From the NCBI GenBank assembly GCA_009192285.1, contig WBVU01000003.1:2759973-2823972 (forward strand): a stretch of DNA of 64,000 nt, given 5' to 3'. The stretch is from Morchella semilibera (lineage: Eukaryota > Ascomycota > Pezizomycetes > Pezizales > Morchellaceae). The notes under the pieces were generated by a model. That model saw only the letters and a list, made by a program, of their open reading frames with translations, made no database searches and was not told where the DNA came from. The translations under genes and the position numbers were made by a program. Of this stretch, positions 2,337 to 60,824 are shown piece after piece (within the stretch, counting starts at the first letter, position 1; every line of letters starts with the position of its first letter).

Positions 2337-5300
2337 ATGTCCTCAAAGACCATCAACACTGGTGGTGACCCGTCCAACCCACAGCCCAACGAGACGTCCA
2401 ATCCTCGAGGGCTCCCGACAAAGACCACAAACGGCAACGGTATGTCGCGCGGCGCAAACGATAGCTACTATAACACCTCAGCATCACCGCACCCAATGGC
2501 CGCGACAGATCCCTCCATGTATACTGGGGCTGGAGGATCAGGTATGTATAATCCCGCGTTTGCACCCCCCCCTTCGTTCTTACCCCAGGCCGCAACCTCT
2601 CCGATGCCTCCTTCGCCGTCAAAGTACAACCCAGTCCCTGTCCCACAAGTGAATCCCTTCTATCCTTCGGCTGCGTCTGCAATGGCGCCAAGTTCGGCAC
2701 TTGTCGCAACCAATCCTAACGATCAAGCACCCCAACCTAATATTCAAGCGCCTCAACCTCACAATCAGCTTCAGCAACACCCTCAAAACGCCACTAGCCC
2801 ATCTCACCCAATAATTGCGGGGCCTCACGGACCCGGTGAGGCGGCTTCATATTATGAAAACCCATACGAACTTCATATCCATCATAATCACAACCATGAT
2901 CCCAACCTCCCACCTCCACTCCGCGAGAGCTTTAAGAAGTTGTGGGAAAGCCTGCGCGAAGAAGAGCGTCATGCAGTTGGCCAATTCGAACTCTATTCTG
3001 AGATCGAGGGTGACTGTGCTAATTGCTTTACACCTGGAACCTCATACACTCAGGCGCCCCGGACCCACCACTATGGCCAGAAATGGAGCAAGAGTAAGGG
3101 TGCCTGGAGGGTGCGCAGGAGCGTTAAGCGTAGAGTATGGATATTTAGAAGAGGTGTTCTCCCTGGATCATCTAGCACCAGTAACTCCAACAGTAGCAGC
3201 AGTTCCAGCAATAGTAGTTCCAGCAGTAGTAGTTCGGACAGTGATACGGGTGTGTCTGCCATCACCGCTCGTCGGCGAAGGCTCAATAAACGGATTCGGA
3301 GGGAGAGAAAGGAGCTAGAGCGGCAGGAAAGACTTGAGTTGCGAGAACAGGAAGCCCGCACTTCTAGAACCTCTACTACAGATATCACTTCTGATTCCCT
3401 CACCAAAATCTCAGTTTTTCAAGCGGGTGACAAATCTGAGTATGGTCCTAACGGCAAGTCACGCCCTATAAATGGGAACAAATCCAGTGGGTCTATTATA
3501 GGTAATTTGTTTGGATCCTCTAAAAATGGCACCACATCAAAGAAGAGTAGTGGACATACTCGTACCACCTCACAGGTTTCAGTAGCATCTAGCAGTGCCT
3601 CAGCAGGTCCTCATCTTTTTGAAGTCTCATCAAGCGCCAGTGCGAGCGACGATGGGTTGGCATATGGCCGCTACTCTTCCTCACCTAGCTCTCAAGGCTC
3701 GCGGAGGAGAACAGGCTGGTTGATCCGCCCCTTGAACGGCAGCAAAAAGAAGATTAATGGAAAAGGCAAGAGCACTAAATCGCCCCCGCCCTCATCCTCG
3801 TCCTCTTCTCTACCCTCAGACGACGATCTCGCCTACGGTAGCCGGAAAGGAACTAGTCTAGGCTCCGCGTCCATACGAAGTAATAAGTCATACGCTGACT
3901 CCGTAGCATCCTCATCCAAATCTGGAGTTCAACGTGGGACATCATGGGGCGGTATCGGTACTCCATCAAACACTAAGCGTAATACTGGCAGTGCCGCAGT
4001 CGGATTTAAACGTTCCGGTTTCACTGGCTCTAGAGTTGCAAGTGGCTCGTCAACGTGGTGGGGCAGGAAAAGCAAGACTACAAAAACTGCGGCCTCAACA
4101 CAAGGCGGATGGTTTGCCGGTGGTGGACGTATAACCGGCGGATGGTTTGGTGGCGCAGAAACGACTACTACAAGGACATCGAGATCGGGATCGTTAAGTT
4201 CGCGTGGTAGCAGTGAAGAGTGGCAAGAAGGCGTAGAAACCACTATCAAAGAAGAGCCTTGGGTTTTTGGTAGCCAGGCCACAGCGAACGCAACCCAGTC
4301 GACGAGCGCTATCTCTAGCACACTTCTCGGGACTCAATCACACACGAGCACTCACATGGAGGGGTCGCACTCTACTAGTAGTACTCACATGGAGAAATCA
4401 TCCTCAACGACCGATCTTATTAGTAGTAGGGAAAAGGCTAGGAAAGCCAGTACAGATGGTCAAGTCTTTATTACGCTACCTAGTGGAGAACGTCGCTCCA
4501 CAAAAGAGGTTTGGGTGGATGATCGGAAGAGTCGTGATAAGAATCCTCTAGAGCAGAGAGCAAAAAGGACAAGTTCGGTGGATAGCTTGGAGAGTTTTGA
4601 GTCCCGCTCACAATCCCATTCGCGCTCTCAGTCTCAGTCTCAGTCTCAGTCTCATTCACACTCTCAGTCTCAGTCTCAGTCTCAGTCTCATTCACACTCT
4701 CGGTCTCAATCTCAGTCTCAGTCTCATTCACACCCTCAGTCTCAGTCTCAGTCTCAGGCACACTCTCACTCTCAGTCTCAGTCTCAGGCACAGAAAACAA
4801 CAACGCAGGCGACCAAGTCCGGTTTTTTTGGCAGTTTATTCACAGGACGCAGCGAGACGTTCTCAGAACGGTCCAAGAAGGAGGTGAAGAAGGTTGAGGA
4901 AGTTAAGAAGAGCAAGGCCCTGATACGAGATGAAAATACCACAAAGGGGAGATCACGGTCGTCTTCTGTATCAGTGGATCAAGAGGGACCACTCACGTTA
5001 ACAACAGTGTATCCAATGGTATGAGCTCAACCAAAATTTCTAGATATATATATAATAATAAAAATGACTAATCATTGTCGATTCTGGCCTTCTGCCTTCT
5101 TGTGGGGGAAACATAGGCTACCAACGATCCACGAAAGTTCGATACCATACAATCCTCCTCGGAGACGTACATTGCTCGTCGAGAAGCCGATAACTCTTCT
5201 TTCGTACGGAATTCTTACTCGTCTGAACAGCACGAAGTCTCATCATCGTCCGCGGTGGTTGGCGGAGCAGATGCGAGCGTAATTGCAGGGGAGCTCAAGT

Positions 5301-8300
5301 CTATTGATCAAAGGCCTCTACCGGTTCCTGTACAGGCTGCTGCCCCACTACCAATTGCCCATACTCAATCTGCTCTTACCAATACTGCACCTATTACTGC
5401 TAATATCACCCCAATATCTACTACCATAATCAACCACAATACTACAATTCATCAAGCTATTAATACCTCCAACACTAATATTAATACCTCCAACACTAAT
5501 ATTAATAGCTCTTCTTCTATCTCGAATGTCAACATTGCCCCATCCCCGGTGACAGTTCTACCTATACATTCAGTTTCTTCAGGTGTCGTGGAACATAGCC
5601 AATCACACTCAAACGCAAGCGGATATAGTGCCTCGTTAGTTCAAGATGTTGCCGCTGCTACAGCGGCGCAAGTAGCGGCCGTATATGCCCAGGATCGCGC
5701 AGAGCGTGAGGAACGTGAGAAGCTCGAAATAATGAATCGCGAGCGGCATTACAATAGCGAAAGAGAGCGTTCAGAACAGATCCAGCGGGAACTTGTAGAA
5801 CTACGAGAGCGCGAAGAGAAAGCGGCACTATTGCATAAGGAAAAGAGCGATAGGGAGGAGAAGGAGAGGAGGGCTCTCAGGATTGCAATCGAGCAGAAAG
5901 AGAAAGAAGAGGCGCAACTTAAGCTGAAGCGGGAGAGGGAGGAGAGGGCCGCTATGGAGCTTAAGAATAAATTGGAATGGGAGGCTAGAGAGAAGGCGGA
6001 AGATGATGCGGCTCGATTATCGCGCCAGAAGCAGGACGAAGAACGTTTGGCAAAGATCAAGAGTGTGGCAGAAAAGGAATACCGGGAGTGGTGTTCGCAG
6101 CAGGCCCTGCAGCGCCTGCAGCGTGAGAAAGAGAAGGATGATCTTTTCCAGACAACCAAGAAAGAGCTTGAGGAAAGGTCAAGAGAGCTTGAGAAGCAGA
6201 CTGCCGTGCAAAAGGCGGTCGAAGAGGCTCAGGCGGTCGAGGTTGAGAAAAAGTACAGACTCGAGCGAGAACTCCAGGTGTCAAAGGATGAGGAGAAGAA
6301 GAGTGAGTTAAGACGTGTCGAGATCAGCAATAAGCTCGAAGAGAAGGCGATGGAGGTCCAGAGACTCCAGCAGGAGAAACAGTCCTACATGGCTGAGCAC
6401 AAGGATGTACTTGCTTCGCAACAACGGGAAAGCTTCATTGCTGGGGCCGAGTTCCAACAGAAGAAAGATGCATATACTCACACAGCAATTCAAGGTCAAA
6501 AATCATCACTCGAGGCTCAACGTATGGAGTTCCTGGAGCAGCAGGATCGTGTAGCTCAGTCGGCTAGGGCTCTGGAGGAGACTCGTAGGATCAAGTTCGA
6601 ACTAGAGATGCATAGTAGTAGGAAGGAACAGCAAACAATTGAGATGCAGCGAACTGAGGTCGCTCGGGAGCACCAAAAGACAGTTGAGAAACTATCAAAA
6701 CTCGAGCAGATTTCTATCGAGGCACAGAGGTCGAAAGATGAGTCTAAAGTTCGCGAAGTCCAGCAGCAGATCCAAATCGAGCAAGAGAACGAAAATAGGC
6801 TTAGGAGAGAAGAAGAGAGGAAGGTCGCAGCGATAAGTGAACTAAAAAAACAGGAAGATTTAAGGGTGCAGAGCCTAGAGCTTCAGATTGCTGATGAGAA
6901 AAAGAGGGATCAAGCTGCGCTGATCGAGGGGCAGAGAATCGTGGCCGCTGAGATGGAAGCAAAGAAGGTACAACAGGAAAAGAAGGTCCAACAGCTTGAG
7001 TCATTGATTATCGCCGGCAAGGAGGAGAGGAGTCAGCTCAAGATGGAGGAAGAGCATAGGGTTCAGGATCAAGTGGAACAGACACAAATCAAAGACGAAA
7101 GAGCCCGGGAATATACTACTCAAGTCCGGTTCGAGGAGGAGAAATCTATGCAAGTACAAATTGAGAAGCAAAAGACCTCACAGGCGGAAAGCGAGTTCAA
7201 GCGTAAACGGGAGGAGGCCCAGGACCTTATAAGACATGCTGCATCGGAAGCGGGGAGAATCGAAATACGAAAATCAGACCAGGAGAGGAATCAAGTGGAG
7301 ACCAGAAGAGAAACGCAGACGCGGGTGGAGGCAGAGCGGAGAATTGAAGCGATTGAAGAGAAAAAGTGTGAAGAGAGGGTCGCCCAGGAGGAAGTACTTA
7401 ATCTAGCGGGCCAAAACGAGGGGGTTGTGTCAGAAGAGGAGCAGATCATCAGAGCAGAGGTCCAGAGGCGTTGGGAGAACGAAAAGAAAGAGCAAAAGCG
7501 TATTGAACTTGAAAAAGAACTCGCGGACATTCATCGACAAATTGCCGAGAAGGAAGAAAGGGATAAGCTAGAGAAGGAAAGGAGGCGCGCCCGCAGCAGA
7601 GAAAAGAGAGCTCAACCAGGGTACCAAGAACGAGAAGCTAGGAGGAGCAGAGAAAGATCTAAGAAGCGTGATAGTCAGGCAGCAGTGGCTCGCCGCAAGG
7701 AGGTCGAATTTGTCCGTGAGAAAGCAGGATTGGATATTACGGAGGAGAAAGAGAAGAAGAAGAAGCGCCCCTACAGTACATGGGATCCACTACCAGACGG
7801 AGATATCCCCGGCTTTACTGAAGGAAAATGGTCGATTCAAAATGGAGTTCCTCGTCTCATCGAGACGCCACCTACACCGCCTCCGGGGACCCCAAGATTC
7901 CCCCAACGAGTTCATTGTGAAGGAAGTTATTTCCCCCCTGTAGACACGCAGACTGATCCAAGCATCCCCGTTATCCCAGCACTCCCATCAATCTATGTAG
8001 CTCAGCCAGTGGCAGTTTCCCAGACTTCCGAGGAGTTCGAGAAAGGGAGAGGGCCCGAGTCTGCTTCAAGGCCACAAGCCGTCACCGAGACATCTGCTGA
8101 GTTCGAGAAAAGGAGTCAACAGTCATCGTCCAACTCTATCTCAAAAGCGATAGCTATCACCGAGACATCTGCTGAGTTCGAGAAAAAGAGTCAACAGTCA
8201 TTGTCCAACCCTACCCCAGAAGCGATAGCTATCTCGGAGACATCTGAGGAATTCGAGAAAAGGAGTCAACAATCATCGTCCAACTCTACCTCAAAAGCGA

Positions 8301-11300
8301 TAGCTATCTCCGAGACATCTGAAGAATTCGAGAAAAAGAGTCAACAGCCATCGCCCGACCCCGCCCCAAGAGCGGTAGCTACCTCAGAGACATCTGAAGA
8401 ATTCGAGAAAAAGAGTCAACAGTCATCGTCCGACTCTATCTCAAAAACAATAGCTATCTCCGAGACATCTGGGGAATTCGAGGAGAGGCGCCAAAAGACC
8501 ATATCCGCAGCTGAATCAGGCTCAAAAGTCTCGCAGTCGTTGACCTCCTCTGAAATCCAGACTGCTGCCGATGCTGCAAGGAGGGTTGAACGCTCTACTA
8601 CATCTTCAGAGTTCGAGGAAATGATTAGCAAGGGCTCTGATATCGACGTAAGAAGGGTTGAGCCGGCCAGGGCTATGACTTCTTCTGCGATCTCAGGAAC
8701 CGCTGTTGTTGGAACTCCAATCTCAAAAGACCAGTCGGTAGCTTCGATTGAGGGAACAACGGCTTCTTCAGGATATGGGCTGGGTAGCATTGGTAACTTT
8801 AGATCCCAGCTTGTGAAGGCAGCCTCGGTGATCAGTGAGACGCCGGCTCTTGTCGGACATTCTTTCACTGGAACCCCCGCAGCGCCAGTACCTACTGTAC
8901 CTAATTTTGGTTCTGCAGTCATTAACTATCAACAAAAGGATGACCAGCAACAAGAGCTACACAGTGATAGTCAAGCCCAAGAGCAAATTTATCAGGAGCC
9001 CCAACCTCTGCCCAGTTCCTCCGTCGCGCCCGCTTTAAAGCCTCAGGAAGAGGTCCACCAAGGCCCCCAGCTTCCCCCCAACCTATTGCCTGCCAAAACT
9101 GCGGATGTGAATTACGGCCCTGAGCTCCCGCCGCACTTGATAGATGAGTCTTCTAGTGCCATCCAAAGTGACCAACCAAACTACCAGCAAGCCTCTTCAG
9201 ATCACAGCGTTCAACAAATCACTAAGCCTGAGCTTTCGGAAGCCCCTCCTAAGACTCAACCATCCCCGGGCTCAAAGGATTCTTGGCCTCAGCTAATGTA
9301 TGAAAAAATATCTTCGGATTATATTCGCTCAAAAGAGTCTTCAGATGTCGAGTACGGCCCAACCTTGCCTCCAGTGCAGCCCCAGGTAACAAAAGGCTCA
9401 TCCGAGCTTCGATCTGAATCCAATTACCAGCGCTCAGAATCGGATTACAGTCGTCAAGAATCCTCACAAGTTACCTCAGTGGCCCAAACAGCTCATGAGA
9501 ATGCTTGTGATGCAACTGGAGAATTCCGGCTACCTGGTGCGTTTGACAACGAGGAAATTGCTCCTGATGTAGTTGTTTCACAGGTTCTACGCAATGAGAA
9601 AACTTCAGCTAGTATGTATCCAGCAAGCCTTTAATTGATAAAAAAAACTGTTAACATATCCAGGGTCGACATCTACGTCCACATCTAGCATTACGCAAGA
9701 AACAAGGGTTGACATGGAGAATATTTCGCACGAAAATAATTCACCTGCTGGTAGGGCTCCTAGATTTTATTGTATTCGATGATGAACTGATTGTACCGTA
9801 GCAACTTCTCATCGCCCTGCTCTCGCAAGTGAGGGCCGATCTATATCCGAGTCATCAAAGAATGTTTACTCTAGCGAATCGACATCTAGGTTGGCATCAA
9901 GTTTGTCAAGAGAAATTGACTTAAAAGAGAGTTTACAAGAGGGTCAAATATCATCAGGTAGGTGGTTGGTTTCGGTTTTGACTCTAAACTCAAAGTGACA
10001 TTTTGCTAAACTTATCTATAGCACACATTAACCGCCCTGCACTTGAGAGCAGTAAACGCGCTTTCTCCGAATCCACTTCCTCACTCTACTCTGCGGACTC
10101 TGATGCCAGATCCACATCCAAGATTTCAAGGGACCAATTCCAAACACCTCCAATTAGTCGCTCAAACGAAAGTACTCCTACCCAGAATGTATCAAGCTAC
10201 AGGGCGCAACCATCTCCGCCCAATGTCTTTGCGTTCGAAGACAACGAGGCATCAAACATTCAGACGGCAGCAGTTGGAACGGGGAGAAGCGTTTCAGATG
10301 ACGGCAAACGCCTGACTCGGGAAAGGCAGGATCAAGAAAATGACCTGGTGGCAGTTGCAGCAGCTTCCGCCGAATCAGCTGGCTTCGATCCAGGCTTGAT
10401 CCTTGGTAACATCCAGCCCCACAGACTTAGCACTGTTATTGAGGCTGGAGAAACCACACCTATTACTACTACTGGTCGCAGGCCAAGTATTGCTAGACCT
10501 CGTAGTGCCTTTATCGAAGAAGTCGATGATGAGGATAACACAAAGACAAAGAGACAGCTTGGTCAACATGAATTTTCCGCAGAGGCATATGAATCTCACG
10601 CAGAAATCTTAGCCCGTGAGGAAGCCAGGTCTCGGTCAGAACAGCAGCTCGCTAGTGGTTCGCGTGCAACACCGCCAAATCAAGATTTACCACCACCGCA
10701 GCCTAATCCTGCCCATTCATCTACACCTGAGGGTTCAGGGTCGAAACAAGAACAAGCCCCCCCGCTGCAGCCAACAGATCTACCAACAGGTCCCGTAGAA
10801 CTCCCACAAGCACCCTCGACACCACCATCAGAGGCTATACAAGAAAGAAAAACCCGTGCCCAAGGTGTTACGAGAAGCGTCCCTGCAGCCAGATCTGCGT
10901 CTGTCTCTGGAAGCTTGAGAACTATAGATTCAGCTCGGGAAGACGAGGGCACCAAACGACCTTCAACTTCCAGATCGTCATCGCTTTCAGGATTTTTCAG
11001 AAGAAAGAAGAAGGATGATACTTCTAGCATAGCTGACAGCGGTGTAGGTCTCGACATGGATGATGGCACAAGGAGAGGGAGGGTATCAAGGAACGATGAG
11101 GAAGAGGCACATATAGGGAGGGAAAGGTCTATCGGGGCACGCTTGCGAAGGCGAGCAACCGATCAACCCTCAGCAGAAAGGCAACCCCTTCATAGGCGAT
11201 CTACCGATCGAGGGGACCGGCATGTAACTGAAGACCAACAAAATCTCCCAAGGCGGTCCACTGACAGTGTGATGACAACACACGAGTCCCAATATGAAAA

Positions 11301-14300
11301 CGAGCCCCAGTCGTCTGAGAGACATTCACGTCGGTCAATAGACAGTGCATTCCGCCATCAAGAGGGGATCAGAGCTCCGGACGCTGCAGATATTGATGAA
11401 GAGGAGGGCTCTAAAGCGGAAACGGAGTCTTTGCACAAGGCTAGGTCTAAGATGAAGAAGGCTGTTAATGTAGGGAAGATCTTTGGGTGGTCAAGGTCAA
11501 AACGTGAAAAGAGTTCGTCTAGGAGTCGGGAAGCATCTCAAACACGCGGGGAATCTGTGAGGCCATCGCATAAAAGGTCGGCTTCTGAAGCTAGTACAAC
11601 AAGAGACAGGCCCGACGTACCAAAGCACAATACCGAAGAATCAGAGCAATTTACTCCGCCGCAGAAGTCAAGGACATCCTCTCTGAGAGACGTGGATATG
11701 GGTTCAAGTTTTGAAGTCCTTGAAGGTGAAAGCTATGCGCCTACGCCCAGCCGCGACGAACCAGAGCCCTACGTTTTCGACGAAGCAAGTCTTGCACAGC
11801 GCATTGAAACAACCATGGCCAAAGCCTCACAGCATGCAGAGACCAGATCTCTCCACCATGAATCAACCCCTGTGGAATCTGCAGAGATCCCTGAACGACC
11901 CAAATCTGAACGTAGATCGAGTACTGTAGGGGGTCTAGCTGGGGTATTCAAGGCTGCCCGTCGGTTGAAGCGATCAACTACAACATCTCAAATTCCCACT
12001 CACCCGGAGCGACCTGGAGAATTGACTCGAGCTGATACTGATAGCAAAGGTTACCGCCCATCCTCCTCCGGGGGAGCAAGTGTAAACGATCAACATACAG
12101 AGAGCGGTTTTGCCCACAGCTCCCAAGGGAATGAAGAAGGACATAGAGTAGCGGGAGATATTCCTTTGCCAAGCTCAGCTTCCGATTCACGTATCCCCTT
12201 GACGAGTACGAGATCAGGTTCATTAAAAAGAAAGTCGACAAAGTCGTTGAGGAGTCTATCTGAAGCACAAGCAGGGAACGTAACGCAAAACCAGGCAGGC
12301 GAATCAACGGGCGATGGGAGAGAGTCAGATCCCAACACTCGTCTTCCAGGAAAGAGCAACAGTATAGAGAGAAAGGTGAAAGAAACTGCCAATCCCCATG
12401 CCCATAGTCACAACGGGGAACCGGGAGCTAAGTCTTATAATTGGGCCGAAAAGTCTACTTCTGCTGAGATGCTAACTCGTTTCGAGGGAGTTGATCTAAG
12501 TAGCAACTTTAGGGGACAGCATGAAAACACGCAATCGACTTCCGAGCCCCCAGATATCTTCGACGATCGAGACTCCCCGCCACATAATGAAAATTTACCG
12601 ATAGAATCATCACCTAATTCCCCCATGTACAGTCTAATCCAACAACAACAAACCTTTCCTGATAGTTTTTCACTTTCTTCTCGTACTCCTCCAATTTCAG
12701 AATCTGCCGCGGTTGATATTTATGAAGAATACCCGGCTTTGCCTCAGAGCAATTCATCATCTCCTTACAACCTTTCTCCCATAAACCAAAACATAGCTTC
12801 CGAGCAACTCCCAGTACACGATGAGGAGATCCCTGCCCTTCCCTTTGGTGGACTTTCTTCATATATCCAGACTCCAGCTGCCGAAACTTTTCAACCACAG
12901 TTTGAGGACCAAGCACAATCCCCTTCCATAAATTTCTTTCGGCCGGCATCTTATAATTTCACAGTCGACACCACAAATAGCCCTTCATGGACCCAACTTC
13001 CTAAGGTTTTCCCAGAGGAACGATCTATTTCTCCCAAAGATGTTTCAGCTTCGGTTCCAATCACCGAAACCCAACTCCCTCCAACATCTCTAGGCGATTC
13101 ACCAGATAATAGTATCCTAGAAGCCTTTGAAGGACGCTCCTACCCAGTACAGACTGAAGAATCGATGCCCTTAGCTCAAGACCCCGAGTCACCAACCGTA
13201 ACTCCTTTTGTTTCCAACCCCTATCCGATCAGCCAGACGCCAATTGAGGACAACTCTCCTACATCTGAACAACAAGTTATTGACGCTTGTATCGAAGTCC
13301 AACCGATTAGTTCTACCCCCCTTGTCGAGTATAGTAGAGAAGAGCATTCAAAGACAAGTAGCCCATCATCTCCAAACGTTTCAGCAGAAAAATCGAGAAG
13401 TCCGCAACTTTCTGCTTCTGAGCCTCAATCTCCCAGTCTGGAAGTATTAAACGACGACGCAGCCCAACTCCAGGACGAGCAACGACCAGTAGATACCCTC
13501 TTTGAAATGCTTGAGAATCTTCCTCCTCTTCCCGAGTCGCCTATCGGAGAGTTCGGACATCCAGTCGAAGGATTCCCCTTAACATATGGTGTGGAGGATG
13601 GCTCACCCGAACCTGCCCCTAGCGAACTGGAGGTGCAGGACAATGTTCAGGAACAGTTAGAAACAGACGGTAATCGGCCTTCCCAATATCCTTCAGAAAT
13701 AGCCCCCGAAAATGGCTACCACGTACCAGAGAATGAACACATACATACACCCCAGGCAGAGAATAAGTCGCAACTACCACCATTAAAGACCGAGTTCGGA
13801 TTTCCTGATATGAGTGACTTGCCGCAGTTACCACCCAGTAGCTCCTCATTAACTCCCCTTGATTGGGTTCCAGCTGGATCGCCGTCTGAACATGACCCGG
13901 CCTCTGTGGATTTAGGTGAAACCTTCATTTCACACCCCCTAAGTCATGACATATCTCCAACATCTGCGGTGACCCCCATGGCCCCAAACTCTCCTAGTCA
14001 ACCCGCCTCTCTAATAAGCGAGTCAGAAATTGAAAGAAATGTAAGATATCATCATTCTTGGTTCACACCATCGTATAAAATTGCTAAAGTAGTTATCCAG
14101 GAATCAATTATTGGAAACACTCAACTGCATTCGAGCCCTCCATCTCCACAACCACAGGTATCTGAGACCCCTAATGATTTAAGTTGTGAAAATTTTACCT
14201 CTACACACACGGTCGATCCCTCTGAGTACCCAACGACAAATTACCCAACTTTTGAAGTTAGGTCAGTGGATAATGCTTCGCCCTCAGCCGTAACCGAAGA

Positions 14301-17300
14301 TATGTTCCGCAAAAGCGAGCCTTCATCGCCAGTGTTAGGTACTGCCGCAGACAACACCCCAGAGCTATATGAATCTCAACATGGTTCGTTGTACGATCTT
14401 TCAGAGCAGATATATGGGATTCCAGATATCCCAGATAGAGAGTACACATCTTTATCCCCAATTTTTGAAGAGTCTTCGGTATCAGCGGCGAGTAGGGCAG
14501 CCTCTGCCACGGCGGGTGATTTTAGTCGTTCGGCATCACCTGAGGTTTCGCGAGTGACCCCTATTGACCGCCCACAATCACAATATGATGGCTCTTTCGG
14601 GCCTAGGGACCACGATGGTGCGGCCTCAACAGGAGCTGTGCTGCCAACAATTGAAGAAATGATTCCGGAAGGTCTCCGACAAGAACTACAGCCTCTTACT
14701 CCCGAACAGGATTTTGAAGACCAGCAGTCTGAGGCCCGGCTAACCCTTGTGGAATATGAGAGAAAACCTGAGGCCCATACAGCTCCGAGTGAATTTGCGT
14801 CTGCCCAGATTGAATCTCAGAGCCTCGACCTTCCCCAGGACAAACCCTCACCCACATGGGAGCCTGATTTTGTGCCTACGGAGAAAAACCTAAATCCCGG
14901 GAGTCAAGAAAACGAGCAAACGAGCGAAGACGAGTCCTATCACGAATCAGATGTTCAAACCGACCCTATCAACCCCCATGTGATTGATCTCCCGCAGACA
15001 AATGAGGATATATCCATCGAGGCAGCCGGTATTCCCTTACCCGAAGATGAAGAGAGTTGGGACTGCCTGAGTAATGAATCAGTGGAACCCATTGGGGGAG
15101 TGCGAGAACCCAACATCGAGCAATCATCTGGAGAACAAACCCCGGTATACAAACTACCCTCTAATATTTACTCTAAGGGTTCCAACCACCATTCATCTTC
15201 CGTCAAGGCCTCTCCCGTCAAGGCCTCTCCCGAGACCCTAGAGACTATGAGTGCCATTGTAGAGCGAGAAATCGTGCCATTGCCCGAGGATTCCCCAATT
15301 ATAATTCCCAAGGAGCCTGAAATGACCGCTGAGACTGAAATTGTCGGAGGGCCTGCAGCTGGTTGGGCCCTCGAAACGATAGAGCTCGAGGAGCCAAATA
15401 TAGTGGGAGCTCCTGACTCTTCGCCAGAGGACACAATGCCAGAAGACGTTATCGAAACCGAAACTGAACTGAACCGCCACTCTGCGATTGCTTTTGAGCT
15501 CTCTCCAATTATTGAAACCGAAGAGGAACCGAATCTGGAGTACCTACCAAATTTCGAGGGCTTTTCTGCTTCAGCACCCGATCCTGGAATTACTAAAGCC
15601 TTTAAAGTTCCAGACCTAGAATCAGGAAACCTATCAAGACATGAGGGCTCTTCAGCTTCAAAGCCAGGGTACACAGTGACCGGAATGTTGAGCCAACGCC
15701 AGAAGGAGTCTGGTCCGTCAGAGGAGAACACTTCTTCAGGCGATACCATCCAGGCTGAACTCGAGCAGGAATCTATGACTGGACGAGATTTTGATGGTAA
15801 AACGGCACCGCCGGTCCCAGAAAGTGAGCCAGAGGTTTTCGAGCTACCTGATGCAGGCCCAATTTCCCCACCGCCTCTGGAAGGTGAACCCATTACAGCA
15901 GCAGAATCCATGGGGATAGCATCCGAGCACCATAGCGACAGTGACCAGCCAAATCACAAACTTCAGGGAGAGCCTGAGGTAGAATCAATAATTCGCCGGT
16001 TTTCTGTTGAAGGCATCCAAATCTCGCCGGTTTCTGTGAACAAACATGAAGGCACTGCTCTAGAAATAAACATAACACCATCCGAAAATGCCTTAACCAC
16101 CTTATCCTCGATTCCTGTAAAGCCTAAGGATACAAATGAGACCCAGATTGCTACTGAATCCGCCACTCAGGATGCATATGGGCCGATTAATGATGGGCAA
16201 CAAATTGAGGAACAGCCTATCCATCAACAAAGATATAACACGCCTCCTCCATTGGAGGTTGAAGTAAGTGAACTATTATGATTTTACCTATCTTTTACTA
16301 ACGAGCTTACTATATTTAGTCAATGATTCCTAGCACACAATTTGAATTTGGCGAATATATTGAAACCCCAGCAACGAAAACAGAAAACGACACAAAGGTA
16401 GATGAGGATGATCAGGGGGAGAATGGGAATGGAGGGAAGGTGGTGAGGGGTAAAATAAAGGATGAGGGCCACGATAGAGTAAAAGAGCGGGTTGAAATCG
16501 CTGAAGATCTTGATCAGATACATGCTGAACCTATCACATTCGGGACGGGGGTCGACCTTTCCAGAGATAACCTTACACAAGCAGATATTCAAAAACCCGA
16601 CAATATCCCAGAAGAGACCGAGGACATTGAGAGTGACGCCTGGGAAGGGGTAAAACTTGAAATGCCATCTGAGGTTGAACAGGGATTCGTGCCAATCTTA
16701 AGGGAAGGGGACGCCGCTCGGACAGACCACCAAGACTTAGCCACTTCCGACTACACCGTTCCCCAATCCGAGCAGTCTCCCGTTTCTGAGCAGCTCCCTA
16801 TTGCCGAACAGCATACTACGCAGTCTCCCGCCGCCGAACAGCCCATATCCCCTGACGGGCAAAATACGTTTGACTACATTCCCTCAATTGAGGACTCCAC
16901 CCTTAACCATAGTACTAATGTTCAAACTGGACACACAATCGGTATTGATATAGAGTCTCAGAATGGTGCCTCAATCAGTGAGAGTGGAAGAGAACAAGAA
17001 GGAGCCGCTTTTGAGGAGTCGGTTTTCGAGAAACCTTTGTTAGATAAAGAGGTGCAGGAGGGAGGGGAAGAACAAACCGAGAGCCATTACTCTCAAGGAG
17101 ATGATGGGAATTTTCCAGCTGAACGCGAATTTACCACCGAGCCTCCGGCCCGGCAAACACAGCCTAGTAGTCAACTTGAATACCTTTCACATCCCGTGGA
17201 ACCCGCGTTAACCTTGGAGACTGGACCTACCCTTGAAGAAGTAGTAATCTTTGGGCCGGGAACCCGTGGGGGTATCTATCTTGAAGGAGGAAATGCCACT

Positions 17301-20300
17301 CAGGAGGACATGGAGGTCAAATCGCTCGCCAAAAACGAAGGGGGCCCAGTCGAGGAAAAAAGAGCAACAAATCCCCAGGAGCCCAACCAGTTCCAACCAG
17401 CGTCTCCTTGGCTCGAAGGTTTTGTCGATATGTTCAACCTTCCATCGCCACAGAGTACCACTACCATTGATAATACCACTAGACCTTTAGAGGATGGGGA
17501 AGTCGTAATAGAGAATGATCACATAGTTGAAGATACCGGGTACGAAGAATTCAAGGAAGCCTCTGAACACCCAGAAGTTTCTGTAAGCGTCCAAGCCTCG
17601 CCCAAATCTTCAAAAGTTCTAGTTGGATCCGAAGCTCTTTTGCCATCCTTTGGACCTGCTCTCCCGGAAAATACCGAGCCCTTGACTATTTATTCCGCAG
17701 CACAAGAGGAGCACTCTCTTGGCGATGTAAGGGGGGAAGGTAAAGGGGACGGCCTCGAAAAACATTCTTTAGAGCAGTCAGAATCGTTCAAAGATCTTTC
17801 AGCACCACCTCCACCTGAGGAGCCAGCGGCCATCAAGATACCCGCCGGGGCTGGAGACGCTGGTGTTATCGAACCGGAGCTACATATCGATGTCCCAGAG
17901 ACTGCCGCCGAGCTGACTGTACTTCCACAAGAAATCAAGATTGAGGAGGATGGTAAGATCAAATTTGCATGCCCTTACAATATTATTACTAATTGATTAT
18001 AGCGTATGCCCCGAAAGAAGATTTGGCTCCTAGCGAGGATGATAAAGTAACCACCACAGAACCTTTACCACCCTCTACCCCCAATTTCGGGGTCGAACAA
18101 ATTGAAAGTATTGCAGAGATTGGACAACGAAGTATCTACCTCGAAAGTGAGGATAGTTTGAAACAGTCTCCGGTTGAGGTAGAAGCATTTGCCAAGCCAC
18201 CCAGCGTCCAGGAACCTACCTATGAATTTGTACAAGCAGCACAAATTGCCGAGTTTCAACCCAGTGAGTTGAGCAGGCCTACCTATCCTATCAATGTCGC
18301 CGAGAAGATCTACAAGGGTAATGGGGAGCAGGGTCAACTCCAAGAAAGCCTGATACATGACTTAAAGGAAGAGGAACCATCTGCCAAGGCATCCCAAAAT
18401 CCTGTCATCGCCTCGATTTCGATTCCTGAAACAGAAGCCAAACAGTCCGGACCGCTTTTATTTAACGAGAAGGAGAACCAACCCTTCCTGAATGATGCTG
18501 AGGAGGATATCTTATTCAACGTTAACCAGGATAAGAACGAATACCAAGTGCCGCTGCCGACTTCAGGGGGCCTTGACCTGTCATATCAAATTCCCGAGGA
18601 GCTTGTTGAGTATATCCCTACTCCTGTAACCGCAAAGTCAAAATCCCGCGATGTTCCAAGCGCTTCTATCGAGGAGAGCGCATCAAATACTAAGGCTAAG
18701 GAAGAAACCCTATCGCCTCGAAAGGAAAACGACCTTCATAAGTCCGAAGTTGTTCAAGGTCAAGTTATGGGATATGAATCAGTACCAATGGAAACTAGTC
18801 TATCCGTGGCATCAGTACCAATGACGCCTACGTTGTCAGAAGTTAATAAGAGAAGGTCCAAGAAGGCGAGACAGAGGGAAAAGAAGAGGAAGTCACTTCA
18901 AGGGGTTGATATTTCCGGATCTTCTGTAGCCAGCCCCGAAAAGCCAGCGGCTCCAAGCGCTGGGGAGCCAAAGGCAACCCCAACAGAGGGTGGATCTCTC
19001 GTTACTAAAACTCAACCAGAGGCACCAGGGGTGAGCCCGAAAAAGAATTCAGGGAGCGAAGTAATTGGGAGTGTTGAGCATGGAGAGAATAATCGGGGAG
19101 CTGAAAGCACGAGGGAGGGACCAAAGCAGTAAGGATGGAATTTATAACTCATCCACAAGAAAGATCACTAACTTCATATTTAGGGAGGATAAATCACCAG
19201 AGGCAAACCGTCAGGATAACCGGGACCAGCTCACACACGGCCACTACCAGAATTCAATAGTAGATAATTCAAACTTAATATCATCCATCAGTACGACAGG
19301 GTTAGAGGGGCCAAATCAAGATGGGAGCAAAAGTGTAGAATCCCATGTAGCCCACCCAGAGTCGTCGATATATCTTCATAGAGCAACAAATCCTGTTGAA
19401 GAGTCCGTGGTCAGCCAGTCTTCAGCTGCACTTGACATCTCGGCCCCAGTAGTCCAACCAGAATCAGATGCCCCGGAGGAGGAGGAATTAAAGGGAAGGC
19501 TAGGATCTGTATCTCTCGTATCTCCACCACCACTCACCCACCAACTTACTCCTTCTTCGCCATCCCTGGAAACGCCTGCGCTACACATTGGGGATTCACT
19601 TGAACTTTCTCCAAAGCCAGATCCCCGCCCAAGTACTCCCCGGGCCCCTCAAATTGTAGTCAATTCGATAGACTCGCCCAATGGTCCCGACATTCTTCCG
19701 TTTCCTGAACGCCGCTCGCCCAAAGTAGACGTTGCTCACCTGCGCCTACCATCTAACATCCCCCGAGACTCCGGCCTTCCCCAAATATTGCGACAGGGAT
19801 CCTCGGAAAGTCAGTCTACTAGTGGTGTGCTACTATCGGGGCCTCAAAATTTCGCGTCTCCAGATCTATCGGTAACCTCGACCACACATAATATTAGCAC
19901 TCCTAGTACTAGAATATACGATGACCCAGAGGACGAGGACCCGGGTTTATCATCTTTTGGTGACGGCGAACTCCAAGGAATCCCAGTCGCTCAAGTTGGT
20001 CTCCGTAGCCCAATGTTCACTTCAGGCTCCAATCCTCAAAGTTTCCTTAAAGCAAATGCCCAGAGTCAACACCCATCTCAAGACATCGACATCGATGGGG
20101 TTACTCCAGTGGTCGAGGAAAACAAGAAGCTCCAATTGGCACCGTCGCCGCCATTTGAGGGAGAGCCACAAGAAGAGGCTAATCAGGGCAAAGACGGGGA
20201 AGAGGGAGAAGAGGGTTGGAATTCACTTTCTTGGATTGCTCGGCAATTCAATCGCTAACAGTTATCCGGAATAGGGATTGAGCTTAGAGGGGATCATGGT

Positions 20301-23300
20301 TCCCATGATACAGTGAGTTTTCTGTCTATTCAATACATAGATAAGGTAGCTAACTTGCCAAAAGACTGTCATTACCGCAATAGAAAACGAAGCCGCTCAG
20401 TCTGATAATCATGAAATATCTACAATTAATACAACCCCTCAATTTTCTCTTAATTCCAAGGAAGCCGAACCAGTATCAAAACCAGAAAGCACAAGCACGT
20501 ATCAAACTGTGAACGCCGAGGATTTCCTATCTCAAACTAGTACCAATAATTTTAAAACCCCAACAGCATTGCCAACCGCCCCACCAACTTCCGACCCATA
20601 CACCGAAAATTATACCACCGTTGAACCTTTTTCTGGGAGCCGAACCAAAAGCTCACCAACTATAAATACTCAGAAAACACTATCGCCCGAACAAGCACAT
20701 CTTAGTCGAACAAATTCCACTGATTCGTCTTCCACCTCCGAGGGGGTGTCTCTGCAACCATCTATATCGTCTCCTGTCCTAGAAAACCCCCCCCAAACAA
20801 TTCAAAAAAACCCTAAACCTCCACCATCAGAAACTGGAAGTCAGGACGAGGATACCCATATTCCACCATCTGAAGCCTCATTAACACCTCCACCGCCTCT
20901 CACACACTCATCTTCGTTTGAATCGGCAATTGAATTCTGGAAGCGCCGATCGCTCCTTAGCACCGCAGACTCAATACCAACACCTCAACTGAGCCCATTC
21001 GCCGAATCTGGAATTTCTCTACCAATTTCTATTCTCCCAAAATGTAATAGCTAGCCCTATCCCCCCTGCATGCCTTTAATGACTAATCAATTGCGTGTCG
21101 AGTAGCACGAAGATCCTCTTCTGTCCGGCCCCATTCCCTGGTTGAACAAGCCTCGGAGCCCCTAAATACAAAAGCAAAGGAAAACTCGGTTAATACTATC
21201 AAGGCCACATCACCTCAGGCGCCTCTCGAATCGAGCTTAGAAAACGAAAATATCAAGAACAAAGCCACAGGTAAATTTTTTTATCATACCGTTAATTCCC
21301 CTCTCTGACACTGGAACATTACGTGTAGTTGAAGCAGATCAGTCGTACCAGCTATCCGACCGACAGGGGTCCGACAAAAACAAAGCACAGGTTGAGATCG
21401 ATCTTCAGGCGCCAGCTTCGCTTGCCTCAAACCAAGACCGGCGCTTATCTCAGACTGTAAGCCTTCAGAGTCAAGACTCGTGCGACTCGCTTCAAACAGT
21501 AATTATTACTAAAGACGACCGTGCACCCTCCCCTTCTAACTCTGATCTGATTCGCGACCCGGCTCTTCCTGGAAAAAACCAAGACCCTGGAAAGGTTGTC
21601 TCGGAAACCGAAAAATTAGAAACCCCAGAAAGGAATATTTCGAATAAACCCTACGAAAGTGTATTTGGCGGGCCGGCTAGAGAGCGAAGAATATCAGACC
21701 CTTTCTTGAGCAAGGAGGGTACCCAAATTAATAATCTTCAATCATTCCAGCTCTCGCAGAGAGTTCTCGATCAACCTCTCACATATTCAGAGAAACCGCT
21801 TGCAAAGGGGGAAGTAAGAGACAGCCTTGGATCTCCCGTTAAGCTCTCCCACCCACCAAAACAGGGCCTCTCTACCATCATCGAACAGAAGCCTGAGGAA
21901 TTCGTGAAGCCGGCTCTGCTCAGATCCAGTACAACAAAAGAACGTGATTTTACTCGTTCCGAAGAATTCGTAAAGCCAAGCCTCCCCAGATCGAAGACAG
22001 CAAAAGAGCGTGATTTCATTTCTTCCGAAGACTTACTATCGCGTCTCCCAACACATCGGCCGCTTCAACGGGCCAAGAGATTAACTCCACTCATACGATC
22101 TTCAACCTCTCCTCAAATAACACCAGTTCCCTTAGAGAAAATGGATGTACTAAAAAGAGGCGAACGGAGAAGAGCCGCCCCTCCACCCCTGAGGCGCGCA
22201 GGTAGTCAACTCGATAGTCCCAATGCAAGTACTGAACATATTATTTTCGGGGGAGGCGACTATCAGCCCCAGCAAGGAAAGGTACTACGGAAAGCCGACC
22301 TATACGTAAGTTACCTTTTTTCTTCAGCCGCCGTATTTTTGATTCAAAACTTATACCTTCTAGGAATCATGGGGAGAAGCTAGCGAACCAAAATCGCCGA
22401 CTCGGCCACCAAGTATAAGAAGAAGGCAGAGTATGCAAATTGTTGAACTGGAGAGTCGTCTAGAGGGCATTGCCGCAGAGAATACTAGCTTAATCCAAGA
22501 AAAGGCCAATATCGAGAAAACACTCTCTGAATCAATTCAACGCCATAAGGAAGACACAGCGATCTTCACCAAAGAAATCGAAGAAAAGAAGGTACTCCTC
22601 ACAGAAAAGGATAGCGAGATCACAGAATTGAGGAAAAAACTCGAATATTACCATACAGAGGTCCAGAGGCTTAGTCAGGCGAACAGCAGCCTCAACAAGA
22701 CAAACACAAGTCTCTCAACATCTTACAAGTTTAGTTATGGAGCTCTAGCCGGCAAGTACGAACGCAAACGTGAACAGCTCACTACATTATCAAAAGAGCA
22801 CTCTGAGCTCCAAGCTAGTTTTGCAGAAGTGCAAGCAACCATGGAGAACGTTATTCGCAACCAATTAAAAGAGAAAGATTCAGAACTTGAAAGGTTGCGA
22901 AACGAGTTGGCCAAGGCTAGGGAAGAAGTGCGTAAATTGCAGGAGCAAGCCACAACAAGACAAGACAATAAATACCTTGATACAAAGGACCTGCACCATT
23001 TCTCTAGCTCATGTCAGCAACTCTATAGCTCGCTCAAGATCTGGTGTAACCAATTCTCGAGCTTCTCTCTTGGAAAGAAGTGTGTCCATGTTCACAGACT
23101 GAAAGATGAGGCTGTCAGGGACCGAGTGGAGCATGTTATGCTTGACGATAGAGGTGTTCGAAAAATGCTTAAGGATGAGAATAAGAGGTCCGAGGTTTTT
23201 ATGGCAATTACTATGAGGATGATATGGGAGCATGTGTTCACACGATACCTCTTTGGATTGGAAGTCGATGAACGGAAGAAGCTAATCTCTATAGAAACGA

Positions 23301-24110
23301 CCTTGGCCGAAGTTGGTGCGTACAAATATACTATTTCTTAGATGGAGAAATCGCTAATCAAATAAACGTAGGATTACATGAAGCTGTTCACCAATGGCGA
23401 TCTACGACTTTGACGCTCCTTTCAACTAGACCAGCTATCAAAGCCAAGAGTGAGGTAGATACAGAGGAGATTGTTCAGACAATATACAACCTTCTAAACT
23501 TCCTTCTTCCACCCCCACTTCAGTACCGTGGCCTATCACTGGAGTCACTTCGTAGCATTGTACAACACTCTGTTCAACTAGCTGTTGAGATGCGAACCCA
23601 GCGTGCCGAATACGTTATGAAACGCCCACCCCGGCCTGACTACGATGACCAAGGCGAGGTAACCAACACGGTACCCTTCGTAGCTTCTAGCATGCAGAAT
23701 CGCGGGTCAGAGCCTGTCTCAGCTCAAGAACTCGAGGATGAGGGCGCAACAGTCAAATTAATCCTGTTCCCACAAGTTATCCGTCGCGGCAACGAGTATG
23801 GGAGAACTACGACACCGAGGTTACTGTTTTGCCAATGCAGGTACTCGTGAATAGGCCCCAGCTCAGGTCAGAATCTCGCGCCTCCAATAAATCAGTTAGC
23901 TCCGCTTGGAGGGAACATCATCATGGGGGTGTATCGAGATTAACGCCAATCACAGACTCCAGCCCTATGGAGACTCCAAAGACTACTCCTGAGAAGGCGA
24001 AGGTTACTGCGCAGAGTATCTTGCCTGTGATACCTGAGCAGACAATACGGCTTGTTCAAGAGGATGTGGCGGTGTCAAGAGGGTACCCGTTTCCGAACAT
24101 TGAAGATTGA
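2337..24110 (+). CDS. Giant leashin-like (Woronin-body tether candidate) coiled-coil/repeat protein, about 7,000 aa, 14 exons
   Basis: Exons: 2337-5018, 5117-9611, 9664-9750, 9802-9957, 10022-16263, 16320-17952, 18003-19128, 19184-20214, 20275-20312, 20365-21043, 21106-21270, 21329-22305, 22364-23315, 23372-24110. All 13 junctions keep phase, and introns are 50-98 bases. Order along the protein: a Pro/Gln/Asn-rich N-terminus with a short ordered block (residues about 195-275); Ser-rich and Ser-Gln/Ser-His repeats (about 756-818); a long Glu/Lys/Arg/Gln coiled coil (about 1085-1735); 25-residue repeats with core ETSEEFEKKSQQ (about 1860-2018); about 4,400 residues of acidic, Pro/Ser/Glu-rich disorder; a second coiled coil (about 6460-6640); and a compact C-terminal domain (about 6645-6910). 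Giant size with conserved ends around a long variable middle is the pattern of leashin (LAH), which tethers Woronin bodies to the cortex or septal pore. That identity is inference. A one-base frameshift is likely near 23800, and the eighth intron has a weak donor. It could be two genes, as reported for Neurospora lah. Confidence 0.62.
4603..4790 (+). repeat. In-frame CAGTCT hexanucleotide array coding Ser-Gln/Ser-His repeats
   Basis: CAGTCT and variants (CATTCA, CACTCT, CGGTCT, CAGGCA) repeat in register with the reading frame of exon 1. They encode alternating Ser with Gln or His, residues about 756-818 of the giant protein. Every unit is six bases, so copy-number change would not shift the frame. 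Confidence 0.9.
8021..8490 (+). repeat. 75-bp tandem repeat coding a 25-residue ETSEEFEKKSQQ unit
   Basis: Units begin at 8087, 8162, 8237, 8312, 8387 and 8462 with exact 75-base spacing. A shorter diverged copy starts at 8021 (66 bases before the first full unit), and the last unit is partial. Each codes for a 25-residue block with a charged ETSEEFEKKSQQ core followed by a Ser/Asn/Pro linker and an A-I-A-I end. Copies differ by few substitutions, so the expansion is recent or homogenised. Confidence 0.93.
20215..20364 (+). other. Two introns flanking a 38-base micro-exon in the giant gene
   Basis: The frame of exon 8 meets a stop at 20256-20258, yet the same frame reopens and joins exon 10 through a good intron at 20313-20364 (donor GTGAGT, branch GCTAAC, acceptor AAAAG). 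The simplest way to remove the stop is an intron at 20215-20274: weak donor GTTGGA, branch CGCTAAC, acceptor ATAG. It is 60 bases long, like its neighbours, and keeps the frame. That leaves a 38-base exon at 20275-20312. If this intron is not spliced, the protein ends here at about residue 5,830. Confidence 0.5.
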
Positions 24111-34835: not shown

Positions 34836-35368
34836 ACAACCCTAACATTGATATGCCCCGTGAAATGATTTAGCGTGTCTACTCAATGCATGTCTGCCCA
34901 TTCATGCATGATTCCCATTCAAGGAAATGCAAATCTCCATCTACATACGATGTCATGTCTAGCAAGGAACTTTCTGACTGTGACCTAGCCTCCCCTGCTA
35001 AACCCTCCCCCCTACCTGTTCATCCGCCCCCCCCCCTCCTCAATTGTTCCCTCTTCTCCCCGATCCTACTTCCGGCTCTCGCCTCATATGCTTCGAGAAA
35101 CGGCCTTTTAACATCCCCTTCCTCCCCACCCTTTCAGTTCAGGTTTCCATTGTCACTTCCAACAACAACGCGGGTTCCAGTCTACCCATTGATCAATCGA
35201 TCTCACCACAAATCAGAAACGAAGTCGTTAAATCGTACAAGAATTTCTGATCTTGGTGGTCTTTTTATAACAATACCTAAAGGCAACGGTATCCTCTTGG
35301 AATAGGGTTGCTGTTTACTCCGATTTCTTCCAACTGCTGAAGCAACAACCCCAATAAACTCAGCCAAA

Positions 35369-37146
35369 ATGTCGTACTCGTGGGTCGGTGCCCCGACCGT
35401 TTTCAACGGAACAAATGCTGAGACTGGTGGTGATTCTGGTTTGTCTCTCTTGCAGCCACCACTGTCAACCGGTTTTAAAAATCGTTTTACTGACCAAACC
35501 TTATTTTCAAACAGCTGTGGAAAACTTGAACCAATGGTACCAATCCGGTGACCAAGGTTACATCCTGATTTGTTCCGCAATGGTAATGATCATGATTCCT
35601 GGTCTGGGATTCCTCTACTCTGGACTGGCTCGTAGAAAGTCTGCTTTGTCTTTGATCTGGGCTTGTGTTGGATCAACACTTGTGATTACCTTCCAGTGGT
35701 ACTTTTGGGGGTACTCTCTCGCTTTTTCGAAAACTGCCACCAATGGATTTATCGGAAACCTGAAGCATTTTGCGTTGTTGGATATGTTGGCCGTACCGAG
35801 TCCTGGGTCACCGCTGGTTCCGGAGCTCTTGTACTCGTTCTATCAAGTAGAGCCCATTTTTCTATGAAGAAGCCAAGGGCTTTTGCTAATTAGATTTTAG
35901 ATGCAATTCGCCGGTGTTACTGTCGCTATTGTTATGGGTGCTATTGCTGAGCGTGGGAGAGTACTGCCTGCGATGGTTTTCTCGTTCTTGTGGGCAACGA
36001 TTGTCTACTGTCCTATTGCATGCTGGGTGTGGAACGTCAACGGGTGGGCATTTAACTATGGCGTTTTGGATTACGCAGGTAATCTTACATAACAGAAACA
36101 CCACAAACCAGGGAAACCGTGTAAAACTAACCAGATGTTCGTGCACGCATAGGTGGTGGACCTGTCGAGATTGCTTCTGGTGTCAGTGCTCTCGCTTATT
36201 CTCTTGTACTTGGGAAGCGCCAAGAGAAGATGCTTCTCAACTTCAGGCCTCACAACGTCTCGCTTATCACTCTTGGTACAATTCTCCTGTGGTTTGGATG
36301 GCTCGGATTCAATGGTGGTTCTGCCTTCGGTGCAAATCTCCGTGCTGTCATGGCTTGCTGGAACTCTAACCTTACCGCTGCTTTCTCTGGAATTGCCTGG
36401 ACCTTGCTCGACTTTAGACTTGCAAAGAAGTGGTCAATGGTCGGTCTTTGCTCAGGTGTTATTTCGGGACTTGTTGCTGCCACTCCTGCATCTGGATTTC
36501 TCTCACCCCACGCGAGCATCCTACTAGGAGTTGTAACTGGTGTCGTCTGCAATTATGCTACAAAGAGTATGCCCCTAATTTCACCATTGAATTATAAATT
36601 TATACTGATATCCGTACAGTTAAGTACTTTGTTCGCATCGACGATGCTATGGATGTCTTTGCCGAGCACGGCATTGCTGGAATGATTGGTCTTATCTTTA
36701 ACGGTCTTCTCGGCGCCGATTATATCATTGGCCTCGACGGTGTTAACAACGGTATTCAAGGTGGATTCCCCAACAAGAACTGGAAGCAACTCTACATCCA
36801 GATCGCCTATATTCTCGCCGTCACCTTGTACTCTTTCGTGGTCACCCTCGTTCTCTGTCTCGCCATCAACGCCATCCCTGGACTTCAGCTCCGTGCCACA
36901 GAACAGGCAGAGCTCTTGGGTATGGACGATGATCAATTGGGAGAGTTCGCATACGACTACGTTGAAGTCCGCCGTGATTACCTTGCATGGACTCCTGCTA
37001 AGGAACACTTCCATGGAGGAGCACCTGTGGCGGCCGGCGATAGGCACGGGATTGCCGCTCATAGTGAAATGATTGAAGGTCGTCAACCAGCTGAACTAGC
37101 AATCAGCCCTGCACCGAGCACAGAATCAAAGTCGAAAGAGCACTAG
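35369..37146 (+). CDS. amt: Ammonium transporter of the Amt/Mep family (Mep1/MeaA type), five exons, 506 aa
   Basis: Exons: 35369-35438, 35515-35846, 35901-36078, 36153-36566, 36620-37146. All junctions keep phase and the length fits the family. The start has the context CAAAATGTC and gives the short polar N-terminus usual in fungal members. Family signatures are clear: GLGFLYSGLARRKSAL in the first membrane segments, APSPGSPLVP-type loop (here VPSPGSPLVPEL), AIAERGR, DYAGGGPVEIASG, GWLGFNGGSAFG, SPHASILLG and GLDGVNNGIQGG. The first pore His of bacterial Amt is Glu here (residue about 199, in GGGPVEIASG), while the second His is kept (about 313, in SPHAS). In yeast this Glu marks the high-capacity Mep1/Mep3 type, not the Mep2 sensor type. 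The protein sits in the plasma membrane and imports ammonium. The C-terminal tail is cytosolic and acidic. Two GATA words lie upstream. Confidence 0.95.
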
Positions 37147-60455: not shown

Positions 60456-60824
60456 TCTAGCGGGTGTCTTAAAATTAACAACAACGACTGTTTTCAAGCA
60501 CTAAAAGCTCGTACTTGATATCTATAAAGGTTCTAAAGCCTCTGTTTGTCGAGCGAATAGTAAAAGGACGACTTTATGGTAGAAATCGAGGGGGGGGGGG
60601 GAGGCGGAGGGTGAAGAGGGGAAGTAGAACAAGGGATTCTTTCTGCCCGCGCTCCAACTAAATCCAAAAAATGGGACAGCTAGAAAGACTAAGAGATGCG
60701 GGGGGGTGGAGAATATGTAGGTCGATCACAGGTAGTGACAGCACTAGTGGATGGTGGATAGGTGATCTAAGGAGGTTTTGAAAGAATAGACAGAAAAGAA
60801 GAGGGAGGGAAAGAAGAAAGAAAT

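Follow-up and report, generated by a model that had tools for sequence, protein, structure and literature searches.

In a stretch of 64,000 nucleotides of Morchella semilibera DNA (contig WBVU01000003.1; the whole stretch is called the window, and positions are counted from its first letter) the plus strand carries at 2337-24110 a giant gene that very probably encodes, as one unsplit protein, the leashin (Lah) of an ascomycete with Woronin bodies. Leashin is the tether between the Woronin body, which plugs wounds, and the pore that links fungal cells. That 2337-24110 is one real, well-predicted gene is confirmed by its codon usage and splice signals. The identity of the product as leashin is probable; it rests on architecture, composition, size and the presence of Hex1 in the same genome, rather than on a direct comparison with LAH sequences. 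The locus is a probable addition to a known family, and its size and form are ordinary.

One Giant Gene

The gene was modelled by frame- and splice-aware dynamic programming between the ATG at 2337 and the stop at 24110, which gave 15 exons, 14 introns and a product of 6,981 residues with a predicted mass of 767 kDa and a net charge of −301. For all 15 exons, the small ones of 38, 87, 156 and 165 nt included, leave-one-out codon scores were above zero in the model frame and below zero in the two others. The locus overlaps 21 plus-strand open frames of at least 90 codons; the codon score, here trained on the gene model itself, was positive for the 11 that the model uses and negative for the other 10.

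The spacers between the modelled exons are intron-sized (47-98 nt) and, in 13 of 14 cases, have a guanine plus cytosine (GC) content of 26-47%, as compared to 49% in the exons; the last intron, 23706-23752, has 57%. When each spacer was dinucleotide-shuffled 200 times, in-phase bridging was possible in 77-200 of the 200 shuffles per junction (in at least 131 at 13 of the 14 junctions). Phase agreement alone is therefore weak evidence, since most shuffled spacers also bridge in phase. The observed splice-signal score was matched by 0-16 of the 200 shuffles at 13 of the 14 junctions. A sequence-only reading of this DNA had joined 14 frames through 13 introns without a phase error; the frames can indeed be joined in phase, in 13- and 14-intron models alike, but this agreement proves little. 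Its claim of a single gene at 2337-24110 with a product of about 7,000 residues was borne out by the codon bias of every exon in frame and by splice signals that beat their shuffles at all junctions but one.

The exception is the last junction (23706-23752), where the observed splice-signal score was matched by 58 of the 200 shuffles. The frame beyond it, at 23850-24107, has a codon score of 0.204, as compared to a maximum of 0.011 among 504 intergenic windows of the same length, and the unspliced tail of 48 codons running to a stop at 23850 has one of −0.06. The frame past the junction codes, and therefore 24110 is the likely end of the gene, with the exact junction uncertain. The start ATG at 2337 has an A at −3 and lies in an open frame that begins at 2301, with an in-frame stop just before it.

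Raising the intron cost yielded a variant with 13 introns and 6,962 residues between the same ATG and stop, in which exon 9 is swallowed into one 169-nt intron (20215-20383); the exact splicing of this region is uncertain. A 66-intron model obtained at low intron cost was too permissive and was discarded as an artefact. The parts of the model, with the evidence for each in brackets, are as follows.

2337..24110, plus strand: leashin-like gene, coding span, 15 exons, 6,981 amino acids (13-intron variant 6,962)
2337..5018, plus strand: exon 1, amino acids 1-894 (gene model, codon scores)
5117..9611, plus strand: exon 2 (gene model, codon scores)
9664..9750, plus strand: exon 3, 87 nt (gene model, codon scores, splice-shuffle test)
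9802..9957, plus strand: exon 4, 156 nt (gene model, codon scores, splice-shuffle test)
10022..16263, plus strand: exon 5 (gene model, codon scores)
16320..17952, plus strand: exon 6 (gene model, codon scores, splice-shuffle test)
18003..19128, plus strand: exon 7 (gene model, codon scores, splice-shuffle test)
19184..20214, plus strand: exon 8 (gene model, codon scores, splice-shuffle test)
20275..20312, plus strand: exon 9, 38 nt, uncertain (gene model, splice-shuffle test)
20365..21043, plus strand: exon 10 (gene model, codon scores, splice-shuffle test)
21106..21270, plus strand: exon 11, 165 nt (gene model, codon scores, splice-shuffle test)
21338..22305, plus strand: exon 12 (gene model, codon scores, splice-shuffle test)
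22364..23315, plus strand: exon 13, with the C-terminal coiled coil and the start of the C-terminal domain (gene model, codon scores, AlphaFold2 fold)
23372..23705, plus strand: exon 14, remainder of the C-terminal domain (gene model, codon scores)
23753..24110, plus strand: exon 15 and stop (coding frame; splice junction no better than chance)

Probable Identity as Leashin

The founding paper on leashins gives lengths from 5,936 residues in A. nidulans to 7,480 in G. zeae and masses of around 600-800 kDa; it describes both ends of the protein as complex and the middle as highly acidic and rich in proline, glutamate, leucine and serine (PMC2690989). The 6,981 residues and 767 kDa of the predicted product lie within this range; the statement in the sequence-only reading that known leashins have 5,000-6,000 residues, which would place this one among the largest, is not supported, since its length is mid-range. 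The commonest residues in the whole protein are serine, glutamate and proline, and amino acids 3251-5250 form a strongly acidic stretch with a net charge of −258. Because proline, glutamate, leucine and serine together make up 33-42% across most of the protein, acidity is the sharper mark of a leashin.

The C-terminal 1,000 residues of A. fumigatus Lah (LahC1000) contain a coiled coil at 509-686 and a hydrophobic segment at 761-781, after which 219 residues follow (PMC5345055). The putative coiled coil of the present protein has 181 residues as compared to 178, the distance from the coil to the most hydrophobic C-terminal segment is 79 residues as compared to 74, and that from the segment to the protein end 251 as compared to 219. 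By its layout the protein thus appears to have a coiled coil followed, at the published spacing, by a region like the pore-targeting C288.

Searches of the gene's own genome (a 56.8-Mb assembly of 23 contigs) gave one match each for the C-terminal exon (E, the expect value, up to 0.001), for this exon without its coil (E up to 10) and for the proline-free block 1 described below (E up to 1e-10); for the N-terminal part a weak second match (E 0.25) accompanied the strong one. The same genome contains a Hex1 gene, with an E value of 5.7e-53 to solved Woronin body major proteins and of 5.2e-07 to the best eIF5A. From this gene and from the intron-bearing genes of the genome we infer a Woronin-body-forming filamentous ascomycete.

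The Hex1 gene is located at C19:262660 (L003:127-1947), on the contig that also carries the leashin gene, and its product ends in HKL. It has a long His-rich N-terminal extension in which repeated SDHSPSGIVHKVTDKVVEH-like units precede the Hex1 domain.

The features of the predicted protein referred to here and below are as follows.

2838..3167, plus strand: amino acids 168-277, the section of the N-terminal 344 residues that bears Cys, His and aromatic residues
5564..7612, plus strand: proline-free block 1, charged, amino acids 1044-1726 (the run extends to 1727); no heptad periodicity, opposite-charge pairing at i+4
8085..8482, plus strand: tandem repeat in frame in exon 2, 75 bp x 5.3, with a 25-residue unit and an ETSEEFEK-like core
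12352..18455, plus strand: strongly acidic stretch, amino acids 3251-5250, net charge −258, isoelectric point 4.2, proline, glutamate, leucine and serine together 41%
22415..22957, plus strand: putative C-terminal coiled coil, amino acids 6452-6632 (AlphaFold2 helices, heptad power)
23195..23251, plus strand: segment of amino acids 6712-6730, placed like the reported transmembrane stretch of Lah (Kyte-Doolittle mean 0.79)

Evidence Against and Alternatives

Several results weigh against leashin. Ten pieces of the gene (exons 3, 4, 9 and 11 excluded) gave nothing above the curated cut-offs when scanned with Pfam, and the spliced C-terminal domain and exon 15 gave no Pfam match at E up to 10. 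A transmembrane segment is not evident in the C-terminal part by Kyte-Doolittle or insertion-type scores, and the N-terminal proline-free block lacks heptad periodicity, although the schematic of Neurospora LAH has two coiled coils. There is little trace of the consensus repeats of Neurospora LAH (R1 with 18 copies, R2/R3 with 33): R1 shows a weak enrichment (9 sites scoring at least 20, as compared to a shuffle mean of 3.5, equalled in 1 of 300 shuffles), and R2/R3 are at or near the shuffle level. Finally, the genome contains six Mpv17/PMP22 loci, none of which could be singled out as the one for the membrane protein WSC. The best R1 score, 30, was reached in 37 of the 300 shuffles; because the R1-R3 consensus is that of Neurospora, it was not taken as family-defining. 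Architecture, composition, size and the Hex1 gene uphold the term "leashin-like" used in the sequence-only reading, and Pfam provides no match above a curated cut-off to back it.

The searches also returned matches that were rejected. On exon 13, 29 Pfam families were listed at E up to 1, including Spc24 and MAD; the best 25 of these 29 were all below their curated cut-offs, and the matches look like generic coiled-coil ones. Exons 1 and 7 had weak matches to SR-25 and YceD, also below the cut-off. In the search of genome contigs the sole locus was a bacterial stretch (29% identity over query residues 43-180, the coil), rejected as a chance match of the coil; viral contigs gave no match. In the PDB the spliced C-terminal domain had no match at E up to 10, the matches to exon 13 were weak (best E 0.036), and the N-terminal piece matched Praja-1 (query 13-82, E 0.00089) in an alignment that starts near a His-rich stretch and was judged to be a tag match.

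The lack of a Pfam family for either end of the protein would also fit another giant fungal scaffold or tether, such as a septal protein or PxdA of peroxisome hitchhiking, which has been described as a putative tether (PMC9882315). Size, charge, composition and C-terminal spacing fit leashin, and this alternative is improbable. PxdA, moreover, is much smaller than the 6,981-residue protein. Several unrelated adjacent genes whose frames happen to be joinable are a still more remote explanation, which we regard as very improbable. It draws on the ease with which permissive splicing bridges the shuffled spacers. The real spacers, however, are only 47-98 nt long, AT-rich in 13 of 14 cases and, at all junctions but the last, have splice signals that few shuffles equal; they would leave little space for promoters or terminators between the frames. 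The overall composition and the C-terminal layout also fit one known protein.

The third alternative concerns how a leashin is expressed. In Neurospora the locus was predicted as one gene of 10,821 amino acids, and its split into two proteins was shown by experiment only; the split depends on an alternative exon of 2,607 bp, which lies in another frame and ends lah-1. LAH-1 is found on the Woronin body and LAH-2 at the hyphal tip and the septal pore, and the unsplit form has been proposed as the ancestral state (PMC2690989). No terminal exon of this type is seen here: the off-model plus-strand frames of at least 90 codons, ten in number, all have non-coding scores, and the longest has 167 codons. 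For this reason one unsplit protein, probably in the ancestral form, is favoured; it is not proven, because the Neurospora locus, too, had been predicted as one gene. Two transcripts as in Neurospora, from an internal promoter inside the reading frame, are unlikely here, although three short introns at 9612-10021 do interrupt the long frames. The small exons between these introns (9664-9957), however, are codon-biased in frame, the adjoining introns were matched by only 1, 1 and 16 of 200 shuffles, the 2,607-bp exon has no counterpart among the off-model frames, and the proposed ancestral state is the unsplit one. Where the sequence-only reading had left open whether the locus is read through or split, the sequence leans toward a single unsplit protein.

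The C-Terminal Part

AlphaFold2 predicts helices at 6452-6554 and 6562-6632, with 13 of the 19 ten-residue blocks that they touch exceeding 85 in the predicted local distance difference test (pLDDT). The heptad power of this coil is 4.96 as compared to 1.05 in shuffles, none of 200 of which reach it. In the single-sequence fold of exon 13 (mean pLDDT 66.7) the coiled-coil helices are confident and the confidence beyond them is low.

A transmembrane segment has been reported for A. fumigatus Lah and predicted for other Aspergillus Lah proteins and for N. crassa LAH-2 (PMC5345055). Since it was reported in 2017 and is absent from the 2009 description of leashin, it was not counted as defining. 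The correspondingly placed segment of the present protein, amino acids 6712-6730, has Kyte-Doolittle values of 0.43-0.79 (0.79 over 19 residues) and contains Arg, Glu, His and Arg; in contrast to that of A. fumigatus it is weak, charge-bearing and unconvincing as a transmembrane helix. The best C-terminal window had an insertion-type score of 7.0, on a scale that, like its damping, is approximate. Of the 12 comparison windows listed for three exons of the ammonium transporter and chitin synthase genes of the window, 10 scored −1.2 to 3.3; the other two, the third and fourth of one transporter exon, scored 11.4 and 12.2 and were taken as non-membrane. To judge by these values the C-terminal domain is more likely soluble and helical than transmembrane. 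This weak hydrophobicity does not overturn the fractionation and mutant data from A. fumigatus, in which the double-valine mutant could act through a broken domain core.

The N-Terminal Part and Block 1

In Neurospora amino acids 1-344 of LAH-1 go to the Woronin body (PMC2690989). The single-sequence fold of the N-terminal 344 residues of the present protein has a mean pLDDT of 48.9, and only a helix at 305-343 exceeds 85.

Two proline-free runs, amino acids 1044-1727 (684 residues) and 6451-6771 (321 residues), stand out, the longest run in 1,000 shuffles being 151. The second includes the C-terminal coil. The first, block 1, has a mean heptad power of 0.84, as compared to 1.02 in shuffles, of which 170 of 200 reach it. 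Its charges are ordered in another way: opposite charges at i+3 and i+4 give a net of +100, as compared to a mean of 0.6 (standard deviation 16.1, maximum 53) in 1,000 shuffles, the pairing having a z of 6.0 at i+4, 3.1 at i+7 and 2.2-2.5 at i+1 to i+3 and being negative at i+5, i+6 and i+8. Opposite charges spaced four apart suit single alpha-helices, a kind of structure that prediction programs frequently misassign as coiled coil. By its charge pattern block 1 therefore appears to be single-alpha-helix-like. Caution is advised, because the C-terminal coil also has opposite-charge pairs, albeit fewer (net +21; 1,000 shuffles with mean 0.5, standard deviation 6.6 and maximum 21), and because individual 42-residue windows of block 1 reach a heptad power of 4.7, so that short coiled stretches are possible in it.

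Two coiled coils have been drawn for Neurospora LAH (PMC2690989), and the sequence-only reading had seen two here. The C-terminal one is supported; block 1 shows a helix-like charge pattern in place of heptad periodicity. A literature search found no open-licence paper in which "single alpha-helix" is paired with "Woronin".

Other Features of the Window

In exon 1 a coding 6-bp/36-bp repeat at 4617-4787 gives a Ser-His-Gln-rich tract. Outside the gene, ammonium transporter exons (PF00909) lie at 35358-37143 on the plus strand and chitin synthase exons (PF01644, PF08407, PF03142) at 57209-60500 on the minus strand; a CT-rich satellite of about 500 bp (55493-56008) follows the chitin synthase frames on their 3′ side, at a distance of about 1.2 kb. 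An open frame on the minus strand at 42040-42741 matches the tocopherol cyclase family PF14249 (E 4.1e-07, 29.9 bits, cut-off 26.6), which is unexpected for a fungus at first sight. Between 46000 and 54000 there is a GC-rich island (54-57% GC as compared to about 40-50% around it). Long open frames overlap in it on both strands; four of these were scanned and had no Pfam match at 0.01.

Comparison With Known Systems

Lah of A. fumigatus (AFUA_2G08060, annotated as 'involucrin repeat protein') is a single giant protein like the product of this locus, which is longer, the A. fumigatus protein having about 5,530 residues as inferred from the residue number V5303. With LAH-1/LAH-2 of Neurospora crassa (NCU02793) the locus shares its giant size, complex ends and acidic middle rich in proline, glutamate, leucine and serine. 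The Neurospora locus, in contrast, was predicted to encode 10,821 amino acids and makes two proteins, whereas here no alternative terminal exon is seen and there is little sign of R1-R3. The middle of leashin has been likened to the PEVK region of titin, its elasticity being argued by analogy (PMC2690989). The likeness, for which no homology is claimed, lies in a long disordered, charged, proline-rich stretch that is proposed to be elastic, and which in the present protein is joined to a long charged helix-like block.

Proposed Function and Significance

By analogy with characterised Lah, the N-terminal part would hold on to the Woronin body by way of WSC, a membrane protein, and the C-terminal part would anchor at the rim of the septal pore, with the coiled coil ahead of it perhaps joining Lah molecules together; the long acidic middle rich in proline, glutamate, leucine and serine would be a flexible spacer that sets distance and elasticity. 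WSC binding, pore anchoring and tethering have support from work with Neurospora and Aspergillus (PMC2690989, PMC5345055). For the WSC homologue of A. fumigatus a direct role in tethering has been called unlikely, and the Woronin-body receptor may for that reason differ among species. One of the Mpv17/PMP22 loci of the present genome (L005:1318-1839, minus strand) has about 55 residues past the family signature and is a candidate WSC, unproven.

If block 1 were a stiff single alpha-helix, the leash could be a strut plus a spring, not a spring alone. At 0.15 nm per residue, a fully helical stretch of 640-684 residues would be about 100 nm long. A comparable distance, 100-200 nm, has been reported between septum-associated Woronin bodies and the septal pore (PMC2690989). 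We put forward only tentatively, and consider rather doubtful, a leashin that is strut and spring and has no membrane span, in which a helix of about 640-680 residues would set the stand-off, the acidic disordered part would be elastic and a soluble helical C-terminus would hold the pore rim.

An intact-looking and apparently unsplit leashin locus in an assembly of 23 contigs is useful for annotation, because automatic gene callers may split up loci of this kind. Two published statements on leashin, that it has two coiled coils and that it has a transmembrane anchor, become testable questions through the possible stiff helix and the weak hydrophobicity of the supposed membrane segment; these questions bear on how the Woronin body stays at a fixed distance from the pore.

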